DNA of 64,000 bases from Gammaproteobacteria bacterium (GTDB lineage: Bacteria > Pseudomonadota > Gammaproteobacteria > UBA4575). The notes under the pieces are model-generated. The model saw only the letters and a list, made by a program, of their open reading frames with translations, did not search any database and was not told where the DNA came from. Positions 58,436-62,599 of the stretch are shown here, piece after piece. The number at the start of each line of letters is the position of its first letter. The first letter of the stretch is position 1. The translations under genes and the position numbers were made by a program. The DNA is taken from the NCBI GenBank assembly GCA_028279275.1, contig JANQOB010000018.1, positions 372,001 through 436,000 on the forward strand. The letters are read 5' to 3'.

Positions 58436-61177
58436 ATGCCTAAAAAAACTGTACCGCCTCTGGTTTTAGTGGATGGTTCATCTTATTTGTATCGAGCTTT
58501 TCACGTACCTAACTTACAGCATCTTTCTACTTCTAATGGAATGCCAACGGGAGCGATCTATGGTGTGGTGAATATGTTGAAGCGATTAATGAAAAGTGTA
58601 GAACCCGAGTACATAGGGGTTGTTTTTGATGCTAAGGGCAAAACATTCCGCCACGACATATATAAAGAATACAAAGCAAATCGGCCACCAATGCCGGATG
58701 ATTTGCAAATACAAATTGAACCACTACATAACATGGTGCGAGCTTTAGGCCTCCCTCTTATTTCTGAAGTAAGTGTTGAAGCAGATGACGTGATTGGTAC
58801 TTTGGCAAATCAGGCGGTAAAGCAAGGTCATGAAGTATTAGTTTCAACCAGCGACAAAGATATGGCGCAGCTTGTGAACGATCATGTAACTCTTGTTAAC
58901 ACCATGACGAATGTAAAAATGGATGCCGAGGGTGTCGTGGAAAAATTTGGAGTAGCACCACATCAAATCATTGAGTATCTCGCGCTGACGGGTGACAAAT
59001 CAGACAATATTCCCGGCGTACCTAGTGTGGGACCAAAAACTGCTGCAAAGTGGTTGAATGAATATGAAACCCTTGATGAATTAATTAAAAATGCCGATGC
59101 CATAAAAGGCAAAGTCGGCGAGAAGTTTCGTTCACACTTAGATCAAATTCCTTTATCAAAAGAACTTACGACCATCCGCTGTGATTTGAAGCTTGATACA
59201 GACATTGACGATTTAGCCGTAAAACCTGAAGAAACCACAACGTTAAGAAAACTCTATACAGAATTAGAATTTAAAACTTGGCTAAAAGCGATGGGCGAGG
59301 AAGATGAGTCAAATGAATCCACTGAAAATGTTAATGAAAACAAAATAGAAGAGGCGACGAAAACAGTTAAAAAGAAATACCAATTAGTGCTTACGAAGAT
59401 AGATTTCAACACTTGGTTAAAAAAACTAAAAGCAGCAGATTTGATTGCATTTGATACGGAAACGGATAGCTTAGATTACATGCAAGCCAATGTAGTGGGT
59501 TTATCATTTGCAGTGAAACCAGGAGAAGCAGCTTACGTGCCTTTTGCACATACTTTTACGGGTGCTCCTAAGCAGTTGGATCGTGATGAAGTGCTCAAGC
59601 AATTAGAACCCATATTAAATAACAAAGAGGCAAAAATAATCGGTCATAATTTGAAATATGATCGTAGCGTTTTACTCAATCATGGAATTGAATTAAATGG
59701 CATACAGCATGACACGATGCTGGAGTCTTATGTTTGTAATTCCGTTGCAAGTCGCCATGACCTGGATACTTTATGTGAAAAGTATTTAGACCATACCAAT
59801 ATTCATTTTGAAGATGTAGCCGGCAAGGGGGCAAAGCAAATCACATTTGACAAAGTTGGACTTGATGTTGCATTGGACTATGCCGCAGAAGATGCTGATA
59901 TGGTGTTACGTTTACACCACGTGTTTTGGGGAGAATTACAGCAAAAAACCAAACAAAAGAAGCTTTACGAAACTATCGAATTGCCGATGTTAAAGGTGCT
60001 TTCAAATGTTGAGCGCAATGGAGTGTTGTTGGATGCCAAGCAGTTAGACAAACAAGGTAAGCAACTTAGTAAACGAATTGTTGAAGTTGAAGAAGAAGCT
60101 TTTGAACTTGCTGGTCAAAAATTCAATTTGAGTTCACCCAAGCAAATTCAAGAAATTCTGTTTGAGAAACAAGGTATCCCCATTATACGCAAAACCCCTA
60201 AAGGACAGCCATCTACAGCTGAGGATGTGTTACAAGAGCTTGCAGATAATCACCCATTACCAAAGTTACTCCTTGAGCACCGCATGCTGAGTAAGCTTAA
60301 ATCTACATACGTAGATAAGTTGCCTAGTCTAATAAATTCTAAAACTAATCGCGTGCATACTTCTTACCATCAAGCCGTAGCCATTACCGGCAGGTTGTCA
60401 TCCTCCGATCCTAATTTACAGAATATCCCAATACGCACAGAAGAAGGCAGGCGCGTGCGCCAGGCATTTGTAGCAGAAAAAGGATATCAAATATTGGCTG
60501 CAGACTATTCGCAAATTGAATTGCGCATCATGGCACACCTTTCAAATGATGAGAGATTATGTGAAGCATTTGCAAAAGGCGAAGACATTCATCGCGCGAC
60601 GGCTGCAGAAGTGTTTGGTTTGAAATTAGATGAAGTTGAAGCAGAACAAAGACGTGCTGCTAAAGCAATTAATTTTGGACTCATTTATGGAATGTCGGCA
60701 TTTGGTTTAGCTAAACAATTGGGAATTTCTCGAACTGAAGCTCAACAATACGTCAGCTTGTACTTTGAGCGTTATCCAGGAGTGAAAAAATATATGGATA
60801 GCATTCGAGAAAAAGCGCGTGAACAAGGTTATGTAGAAACTTTATTTGGTAGAAGACTATATTTGCCAGATATTAATAATAAAAATGTTCAGCGACGACA
60901 ATATGCTGAACGCACAGCGATCAATGCGCCTATGCAAGGTACGGCCGCCGATATTATTAAGCGCGCAATGATCATAATAGATGACTATCTGCAAGATAAA
61001 AAAACAGATTGCAAAATGATTATGCAAGTACATGATGAACTGGTGTTTGAAGTAAAAGAAAAATCAGTAGATACAATTAAAAAAAATGTTGTTGAACAGA
61101 TGGAAACCGCGGCTGAGCTTTCAATACCATTAGTTGTTGATGCCGCTATTGGTGCGAATTGGGATGAGGCTCATTAA
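58436..61177 (+). CDS. polA: DNA polymerase I
   Basis: 913 residues with three domains. The 5' nuclease (1-290) has LVDGSSYLYRAFHV, STSDKDMAQLVNDHV and LTGDKSDNIPGVPSVGPKTA. The 3'-5' exonuclease (about 320-510) has the intact DxE (IAFDTETDSLD) and DYAAEDADM. The polymerase has motif A LAADYSQIELRIMAHLS, motif B RRAAKAINFGLIYGMSAFGL and motif C MQVHDELVFEV. Proofreading is probably functional. Downstream is the sRNA locus. Confidence 0.97.
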   Translation: MPKKTVPPLVLVDGSSYLYRAFHVPNLQHLSTSNGMPTGAIYGVVNMLKRLMKSVEPEYIGVVFDAKGKTFRHDIYKEYKANRPPMPDDLQIQIEPLHNMVRALGLPLISEVSVEADDVIGTLANQAVKQGHEVLVSTSDKDMAQLVNDHVTLVNTMTNVKMDAEGVVEKFGVAPHQIIEYLALTGDKSDNIPGVPSVGPKTAAKWLNEYETLDELIKNADAIKGKVGEKFRSHLDQIPLSKELTTIRCDLKLDTDIDDLAVKPEETTTLRKLYTELEFKTWLKAMGEEDESNESTENVNENKIEEATKTVKKKYQLVLTKIDFNTWLKKLKAADLIAFDTETDSLDYMQANVVGLSFAVKPGEAAYVPFAHTFTGAPKQLDRDEVLKQLEPILNNKEAKIIGHNLKYDRSVLLNHGIELNGIQHDTMLESYVCNSVASRHDLDTLCEKYLDHTNIHFEDVAGKGAKQITFDKVGLDVALDYAAEDADMVLRLHHVFWGELQQKTKQKKLYETIELPMLKVLSNVERNGVLLDAKQLDKQGKQLSKRIVEVEEEAFELAGQKFNLSSPKQIQEILFEKQGIPIIRKTPKGQPSTAEDVLQELADNHPLPKLLLEHRMLSKLKSTYVDKLPSLINSKTNRVHTSYHQAVAITGRLSSSDPNLQNIPIRTEEGRRVRQAFVAEKGYQILAADYSQIELRIMAHLSNDERLCEAFAKGEDIHRATAAEVFGLKLDEVEAEQRRAAKAINFGLIYGMSAFGLAKQLGISRTEAQQYVSLYFERYPGVKKYMDSIREKAREQGYVETLFGRRLYLPDINNKNVQRRQYAERTAINAPMQGTAADIIKRAMIIIDDYLQDKKTDCKMIMQVHDELVFEVKEKSVDTIKKNVVEQMETAAELSIPLVVDAAIGANWDEAH

Positions 61178-61397: not shown

Positions 61398-61793
61398 ATG
61401 ATAAGGAACATCATTACTGCAGCAATACTATCTGCCGCGTTTATATCCTTGGCTTCAATTGCACAACTAGCAAGTGCAGTTGAACCCAATTTAAATCTAG
61501 AGCTTCCTTTAGTAGAAGATCGCACAGATACATTTGATCATCCCTTCGCTTGGACGCCAGATCTGGCACAGCAAAAAAGAATTAAAAATTTATATCAGCA
61601 CCTAATAATGCCAAAAAACATACAGGGCAGTAGTTTTTCTGGCGCCATAACACCTGAGCAACGACTATTTTCTTTCGAGATCTATCAAGGTGATGGTTTA
61701 GATGATTTACGTAGCAAACCTAATCAAGGTGGTCTTACTCTTCCAGATGAAGACGAAAGTGCCTATGGAGTGTCTGTCAAACAACGTTTCTAG
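61398..61793 (+). CDS. Unrecognised exported protein after polA
   Basis: 131 residues. Signal peptide about 1-27 (ending LASA|VE). The mature part is soluble and polar, with DTFDHPFAWTPDLAQQKRIK, PEQRLFSFEIYQGDGLDDLR and a basic terminus SVKQRF. I do not recognise the family. It separates polA from the sRNA candidate. Confidence 0.7.
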   Translation: MIRNIITAAILSAAFISLASIAQLASAVEPNLNLELPLVEDRTDTFDHPFAWTPDLAQQKRIKNLYQHLIMPKNIQGSSFSGAITPEQRLFSFEIYQGDGLDDLRSKPNQGGLTLPDEDESAYGVSVKQRF

Positions 61794-61848: not shown

Positions 61849-61875
61849 GAACTTTTACTGCTGAATATCCTCTAA
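61849..61875 (+). promoter_or_regulatory. Sigma-E/AlgU-like promoter for the sRNA candidate
   Basis: GAACTT (61849-61854), 16 bp, then TCTAA (61871-61875) match the extracytoplasmic sigma-E/AlgU consensus GAACTT-N16/17-TCTGA. The predicted transcription start is about 61881, just before the first stem of the sRNA. Pseudomonas ErsA is transcribed by the same sigma class. Confidence 0.8.
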
Positions 61876-61880
61876 CTATT

Positions 61881-61988
61881 GACGCTATTGCGTCACCCGC
61901 TTCCCTCCCTTAGCGGGCTAAAATACGGCTCGGGCTCCCCAACCGAGTCATTCTTGGCCCCGGTTCATAATAACCGGGGCGCTTTTTT
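61881..61988 (+). ncRNA. Candidate Hfq-type small RNA (ErsA/Spot 42-like position)
   Basis: About 108 nt between a sigma-E-like promoter and a strong terminator in the polA-engB interval. Hairpins: GACGC-tatt-GCGTC (61881-61894); CCCGCT / AGCGGG (61896-61917) with the loop TCCCTCCCTT; GGCTCGG / CCGAGTC (61927-61949) with a loop containing CTCCCC; then the terminator. Spot 42 (enterics) and ErsA (Pseudomonas) occupy this locus, and both end in a GCCCC..GGGGC terminator. C-rich loops could pair with Shine-Dalgarno sequences, as the UCCCC of ErsA does. I infer an ErsA-like, envelope-stress-induced sRNA. Confidence 0.8.
61957..61988 (+). terminator. Intrinsic terminator of the sRNA candidate
   Basis: GCCCCGGTT / AACCGGGGC (9 bp, 6-nt loop) followed by GC and six T. 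It lies 3 bp before the engB stop (convergent gene). Confidence 0.95.
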
Positions 61989-61990
61989 AC

Positions 61991-62599
61991 CTATTTCTTC
62001 ATAGCAGAGTTTAACCAGTCGACGATCTTGTTTTGTGCCTGATGGAGACCAATCTGCTTAGTGGCAGAGAAGGTTTGAACCCCACAATTAAATCCTTCTT
62101 GCTCTAATTTTGAAGTGACTAAAGTCATGGCCTTTGTTGTGTGATTGCGATTCACTTTATCTGCTTTAGTCAACAGAATATATAGCGGTAATTGGTAATG
62201 GTTTGTCCAGTGAATCATCGTCCAATCAATTTCTGTCAATGGATGGCGTATATCCATAAGTAACACTAAACCACATAAAGACTCTCGAATCGTTAGGTAG
62301 TCTTCCATTAACCGTTGCCATTTTTGCTGTACTTTAGCGGGTGCTTTGGCATAACCATAGCCAGGTAGATCAACCAAGCAAGTATCACCATCTAATTTGA
62401 AAAAATTGATTAATTGCGTGCGACCTGGGGTTTTGCTGGTACGTGCAAGATTTTTCTGTCCACATAATGCGTTAATTGCACTGGATTTACCCGCATTGGA
62501 GCGACCACAAAATGCGATTTCAGCCACGATATTATTAGGGAAATCTTGCTTTGCTGAAGCACTTCGCAAAAAGTGTGCTTTTGACAGTACAGAACTCAT
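61991..62599 (-). CDS. engB: Ribosome-biogenesis GTPase EngB (YihA/YsxC)
   Basis: 202 residues. TrmE-Era-EngA-EngB-Septin family GTPase needed for 50S ribosome assembly. G1 FCGRSNAGKSSAINALCG, G2/Sw1 PGRTQLINFF, G3 LVDLPGYGYAKAPAKV, G4 LLTKADK. It converges with the sRNA gene. Conserved neighbour of polA in gammaproteobacteria. Confidence 0.96.
   Translation of the reverse strand: MSSVLSKAHFLRSASAKQDFPNNIVAEIAFCGRSNAGKSSAINALCGQKNLARTSKTPGRTQLINFFKLDGDTCLVDLPGYGYAKAPAKVQQKWQRLMEDYLTIRESLCGLVLLMDIRHPLTEIDWTMIHWTNHYQLPLYILLTKADKVNRNHTTKAMTLVTSKLEQEGFNCGVQTFSATKQIGLHQAQNKIVDWLNSAMKK

Follow-up and report, generated by a model that had tools for sequence, protein, structure and literature searches.

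A sigma-E-type-promoter sRNA between polA and engB and its probable family across the Gammaproteobacteria

The window analysed here, a stretch of 64,000 nucleotides of gammaproteobacterial DNA, includes a short interval between polA and engB in which a first-pass annotation, made from the letters alone, had placed an sRNA gene resembling ErsA and Spot 42. The locus raises the question of whether this RNA belongs to one of the known classes, belongs to something broader, or is a separate RNA at all.

The locus and its promoter

Direct reading of the window sequence at 61849 to 61988 reveals a sigma-E-type promoter, then three hairpins, then an intrinsic terminator. The features of the region are these.

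58436 to 61177, plus strand: polA, the upstream neighbour, which many relatives also have on this side of the RNA
61398 to 61793, plus strand: ORF for a putative exported protein of 131 aa, between polA and the sRNA
61849 to 61854, plus strand: -35 element GAACTT, read directly and kept in relatives
61871 to 61875, plus strand: -10 element TCTAA, after a 16-bp spacer from the -35 element
61881 to 61988, plus strand: sRNA gene of about 108 nt, supported by fold z score and by covariance models R1 and R2, with a 5' end predicted from the spacing to the -10 element
61881 to 61894, plus strand: hairpin 1, a short stem GACGC/GCGUC, supported by the fold and by covariation in the family
61896 to 61917, plus strand: hairpin 2, with the C-rich loop UCCCUCCCUU at 61902 to 61911, supported by the fold and by class-wide covariation
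61927 to 61949, plus strand: hairpin 3, with the C-rich loop GCUCCCCAA at 61934 to 61942, supported by the fold and by class-wide covariation
61957 to 61988, plus strand: intrinsic terminator, a GCCCCGGUU stem and six U, supported by the fold and by class-wide covariation
61991 to 62599, minus strand: engB (yihA/ysxC), convergent with the sRNA

The predicted fold of the sRNA has an energy of -48.7 kcal/mol, compared with -30.2 +/- 3.4 kcal/mol for shuffled sequences (z = -5.5), and none of 200 shuffles folds as well. The sequence reading and this fold confirm the gene with three hairpins and a terminator that had been called at 61849 to 61988. Its position between polA and engB, with an extra exported-protein ORF after polA, holds as well, and the C-rich loops noticed earlier are present in hairpins 2 and 3. 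The terminator stem spans 61957 to 61980 and is followed by GC and a six-T tract (61983 to 61988); the terminator loop of the window copy is CAUAAU, which is not C-rich.

The engB stop codon lies just two bases beyond the six-T tract. A bidirectional terminator that also serves engB was considered and rejected, because the opposite strand carries no T run. No Pfam family matched the exported-protein ORF at 61398 to 61793. C-termini akin to that of this ORF (YGVxVKQRF) are present in close relatives.

The promoter, previously assigned to the sigma-E/AlgU class, reads GAACTT-N16-TCTAA. The motif has one match in the 64 kb against 0.28 expected, which alone is not beyond chance, so the case for the promoter rests on its conservation in relatives.

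Close relatives

Across the genus and its family, promoter and hairpins are preserved in this interval, as is a near-invariant core, CCGCTTCCCTCCCT-AGCGG. Thirteen family members were put through a plain MAFFT alignment, in which 10 of the 27 pairs are changed on both sides, compared with 6.4 in shuffled alignments, and the covariation score is 0.265, compared with 0.174 for shuffled alignments and at most 0.10 with slid partners. This family-level evidence comes from hairpins 1 and 3 and the terminator. Hairpin 2 is invariant among the 13 members and therefore supplies no covariation evidence at that depth. Four of the five pairs of hairpin 1 show changes on both sides in the family; class-wide support for this hairpin is weaker.

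Three genomes from a sister genus in the same family (L027, L029 and L035) have only a diverged RNA at the site. Matches to the class-wide model R2, described below, are weak in L029 and L035 (20.0 and 23.0 bits), and a GAACT promoter-like sequence is still visible in L027 and L029.

Distribution across the class

Two covariance models were built. R1 derives from 22 sequences, of which 14 lie outside the window's family, and R2 was built from A4, an alignment of 94 sequences that includes no member of the window's family. Because diverse members misalign at hairpin 1 in MAFFT, both models omit that hairpin. R1 has a single strong match in the window's genome, at 89.6 bits, with the next match at 20.7 bits, and R2 reaches 77 bits (E 1.7e-19) on the window RNA even though the window's family had no part in its construction.

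At E <= 1e-3, R1 matches 208 of the 369 genomes sampled from the class. It also matches 52 of 95 engB-flanking loci at E < 0.01, many of these outside the training set; the 95 loci represent mostly one genome per family of the class. The first-pass annotation had anticipated an extension to another lineage. The window RNA is such a new member, but the scope was underestimated, as the family is present in more than half of the sampled class genomes. A phage origin of the sRNA was also considered and rejected, because viral contigs lack the core pattern.

Covariation and constant loops

In A4, 93.3% of cells pair, and both partners show changes in 21 of the 22 pairs. The covarying pairs include all six in hairpin 2, all seven in hairpin 3, and eight of nine in the terminator. 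The covariation score is 0.50, compared with 0.185 for shuffled alignments and at most 0.12 for slid ones. Fitting A4 to the R1 structure biases the alignment towards it; however, the large gap between these scores and the agreement of the 13-member MAFFT result make the fitting an unlikely cause of the covariation. Compensatory changes among relatives, the lack of which had been proposed as a refutation, are thus present in both the family and the class alignments.

The loops are far more constant. CCUCCC occurs in the hairpin 2 loop at 84% of loci, the hairpin 3 loop contains UCCCC in 70% and CCC in 95%, and the terminator loop contains CCC at 85%. Stems that change freely around fixed loops are the pattern to be expected of single-stranded seeds. 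From these sequence patterns, the hairpin 2 loop is likely a seed and the most conserved element of the RNA, and the hairpin 3 loop is likely a second seed. The earlier suggestion was of a possible second C-rich seed; the hairpin 2 loop, however, is the most conserved feature of the family and not an addition.

Because E. coli Spot 42 has an annotated small protein, SpfP, the transcript might be supposed to encode a short protein. Yet the plus strand of 61881 to 61988 is without any ATG, and the stems vary by compensating changes, so that a coding function is extremely improbable.

A promoter that travels with the RNA

To avoid circularity, 81 loci were chosen solely on a match to the RNA model, in genomes that had not contributed to the engB set. 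A gene for engB lies near 50 of these structure-found loci, convergent with the RNA in 49 and inverted in one, and engB or polA lies within 1.7 kb in 63 of them. R1 does not cover the region upstream of the RNA in which the promoter was scored. In that region, GAACY-N15-18-TC is found at 70 of the 81 loci, compared with 2.4 in dinucleotide shuffles, and a version with a fuller -10 element is found at 51 of 81, compared with 0.06. When the structure-found loci are aligned on GAAC only, the resulting logo reads TGAACTTT, then GTC(T/A)(T/A)A at the right distance. This logo corresponds to the sigma-E consensus known from E. coli.

The element follows polA and the 131-aa ORF on the same strand, and its hairpins could in principle be the mere 3' end or terminator of a polA/exported-protein transcript, with no separate sRNA. 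This explanation would leave unexplained a promoter that most members conserve at constant spacing upstream of hairpin 1, and that is retained by 17 of 18 copies unlinked to polA or engB and by 17 of 21 copies in multi-copy loci. Constant C-rich loops are also needless for a terminator. We regard a simple transcript end as very unlikely, and a separate sRNA gene with its own promoter remains the preferred reading.

At several loci the sRNA is present two to four times in tandem (L215/L234 in genome G188, L217 in G295, and L180, L181, L195, L229 and L250). Most copies in these arrays have their own sigma-E-type promoter, and several arrays lie between polA and engB. It is possible that the tandem copies are redundant siblings.

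Comparison with known RNAs

No Rfam family matches the window over its own cut-off. The covariance search against the Rfam Spot_42 and ErsA models that the first-pass annotation had proposed likewise stayed below cut-off: the Spot_42 model (cut-off 80 bits) scores 16.8 bits in the window (E 9.1), and the ErsA model (cut-off 50 bits) has no match in the window's genome at E <= 0.01, nor in the window region at E <= 10. The sX13 model (cut-off 50 bits) has no match in the window's genome at E <= 0.001.

Spot 42 (RF00021) of enterics and vibrios shares with the window RNA the position between polA and engB/yihA. The window RNA might therefore be a true Spot 42 orthologue, a CRP-controlled carbon regulator of different appearance. 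It occupies the same site as spf, a GC-rich terminator ends both RNAs, and E. coli Spot 42 is matched weakly by R1 (18.6 bits) and R2 (17 bits). However, that alignment to R1 runs through the terminator only; Spot 42 is without the two C-rich hairpins, the Rfam model reaches only E = 9 on the window, and the window promoter is of the sigma-E type, whereas Spot 42 is repressed by CRP-cAMP, according to work cited in PMC3295665. Orthology with Spot 42 is accordingly hard to credit, and of the earlier description "Spot 42-like" only the position stands.

The nearest Rfam model is anti-hemB (ncS04, RF02837) of Burkholderia. It scores the window RNA at 37.1 bits (E 3.2e-6, cut-off 49.5), the whole model aligns, and the CCUCCCU loop of hairpin 2 is common to both. 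The Rfam model, unlike the window RNA, does not have hairpins 1 and 3 as pairs, and the best-scoring anti-hemB copy (L244) has no clear sigma-E promoter. R2 scores anti-hemB copies at 42 to 52 bits, and several anti-hemB matches sit downstream of polA.

ErsA (RF01719, Pseudomon-1) of Pseudomonas shares with the window RNA the polA-engB region, a promoter of the sigma-E class (sigma-22/AlgU), stem-loops with a C-rich loop, and a terminator. The kinship with ErsA claimed earlier is upheld by the class-wide models, as an ErsA copy over the Rfam cut-off scores 29.6 bits with R1 and 33.4 bits with R2. The copy examined, unlike the window RNA, lacks a clear CCUCCC hairpin 2, and ErsA has a U-rich unstructured linker (PMC8575079). 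Sigma-22 drives ErsA synthesis, and the RNA, acting with Hfq, represses the porin gene oprD (PMC8395346).

The sX13 RNA (RF02232) of Xanthomonadaceae lies downstream of polA and has three stem-loops with apical C-rich loops, whereas the window RNA has C-rich loops in hairpins 2 and 3 only. R2 matches sX13 copies that pass the Rfam cut-off, at 41 bits, and the sX13 and ErsA copies found here are directly downstream of polA. The sX13 RNA was reported as restricted to Xanthomonadaceae and acts without Hfq; its C-rich loops repress mRNAs bearing G-rich motifs, and both the loops and the target motifs are required (PMC3771888).

Another explanation is convergence, in which ErsA, sX13, anti-hemB, and the window RNA are analogues that arose repeatedly beside polA; this would leave the window RNA a sigma-E sRNA all the same. 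C-rich loops do recur in unrelated RNAs. GsrN of Caulobacter, for example, is also driven by an alternative sigma factor and has an exposed C-rich loop, but it depends on sigma-T/EcfG, in most relatives lies close to the general stress locus, and has no link to polA (PMC5869019). The scores of ErsA are modest, and the anti-hemB model gives below-cut-off matches in some unrelated control genomes. On the other side, the order of hairpins is the same among the families, and sX13, ErsA, and several anti-hemB matches share their place downstream of polA. Moreover, single loci match several Rfam models, as does L234: with four copies in tandem between polA and engB, it scores 48.3 bits with sX13, 41.8 with anti-hemB, and 37.1 with ErsA. 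This favours one family with lineage-specific branches, and convergence is unlikely. We conclude that 61881 to 61988 probably encodes a trans-acting sRNA with a sigma-E-type promoter, belonging to a Gammaproteobacteria-wide family that ancestrally lay between polA and engB and that includes ErsA, sX13, and anti-hemB.

Proposed mechanism and candidate targets

We infer transcription, stress control, Hfq use, and targets of the sRNA from sequence and by analogy with the studied RNAs. Under envelope stress, RpoE freed from RseA/RseB would transcribe the sRNA from its own sigma-E (RpoE/AlgU)-type promoter, and the transcript would end at its own terminator. The RNA would act in trans: its covarying stems would display the two constant single-stranded C-rich loops, which may pair with G-rich ribosome-binding sites (GGGAGG/GGGGAG) and so reduce translation. 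The targets are plausibly mRNAs of envelope proteins, and perhaps Hfq takes part. The window's genome encodes RpoE (312 bits), followed directly by RseA- and RseB-domain proteins, and Hfq (102 bits).

Candidate targets were sought by pattern searches of the genome sequence. The perfect 9-base complement of the hairpin 2 loop, AAGGGAGGG, occurs in the window's genome only at the sRNA itself, so any pairing by this loop elsewhere in the genome must be shorter. The reversed control of AAGGGAGGG occurs six times in the same genome, and the scarcity might reflect avoidance, or chance.

The pattern GGGAGG-N4-10-ATG has 47 matches, compared with 16 for the reversed control, and many of the matches are not gene starts. 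Those in the window's genome that look like real genes include ones for a Gcw_chp-family protein with a signal-like N-terminus, a TonB-receptor plug protein, MscL, and a sodium:alanine symporter. Three relatives, G003, G008 and G014, share an outer-membrane-like protein whose ATG is preceded by AAGGGAGGAGAA, and the symporter turns up again in G001. G008 and G014 are closely related and the motif doubles as a Shine-Dalgarno sequence, so these genes are candidates only; as sRNA targets, the GGGAGG-bearing envelope genes are no more than suggestive.

The outer-membrane-like protein, of at least 501 aa, has its AAGGGAGGAGAA-type leader at loci L314, L311 and L312 of the three relatives. No Pfam family matched its 501-aa stretch.

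Evolution and significance

The window RNA itself is of a kind already known; what stands out is the class-wide unification of ErsA, sX13, and anti-hemB. No paper linking these three RNAs was found in the open-access library searched, and earlier recognition in subscription papers is possible.

The data suggest that sigma-E control with C-rich loops is the ancestral state. On balance, we lean toward a history in which one ancient sRNA, under sigma-E control and with constant C-rich seed loops, was established beside polA early in the Gammaproteobacteria (in the GTDB sense, which includes Burkholderiales). ErsA, sX13, and anti-hemB would be its lineage-specific descendants, the RNA would duplicate in tandem or relocate along with its promoter, and Spot 42, under CRP control, would be a derived or replacement occupant of the site.

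A recurrent promoter-plus-RNA unit ties together three RNAs that were described separately, and the model, the promoter, and the conserved seed loops are supplied for testing across a large part of the class. They offer a starting point for RNA-seq annotation in the many lineages in which the curated Rfam cut-offs miss the sRNA. If the proposed history is true, the ancient polA-side sRNA would be among the most widespread envelope-stress sRNAs known.
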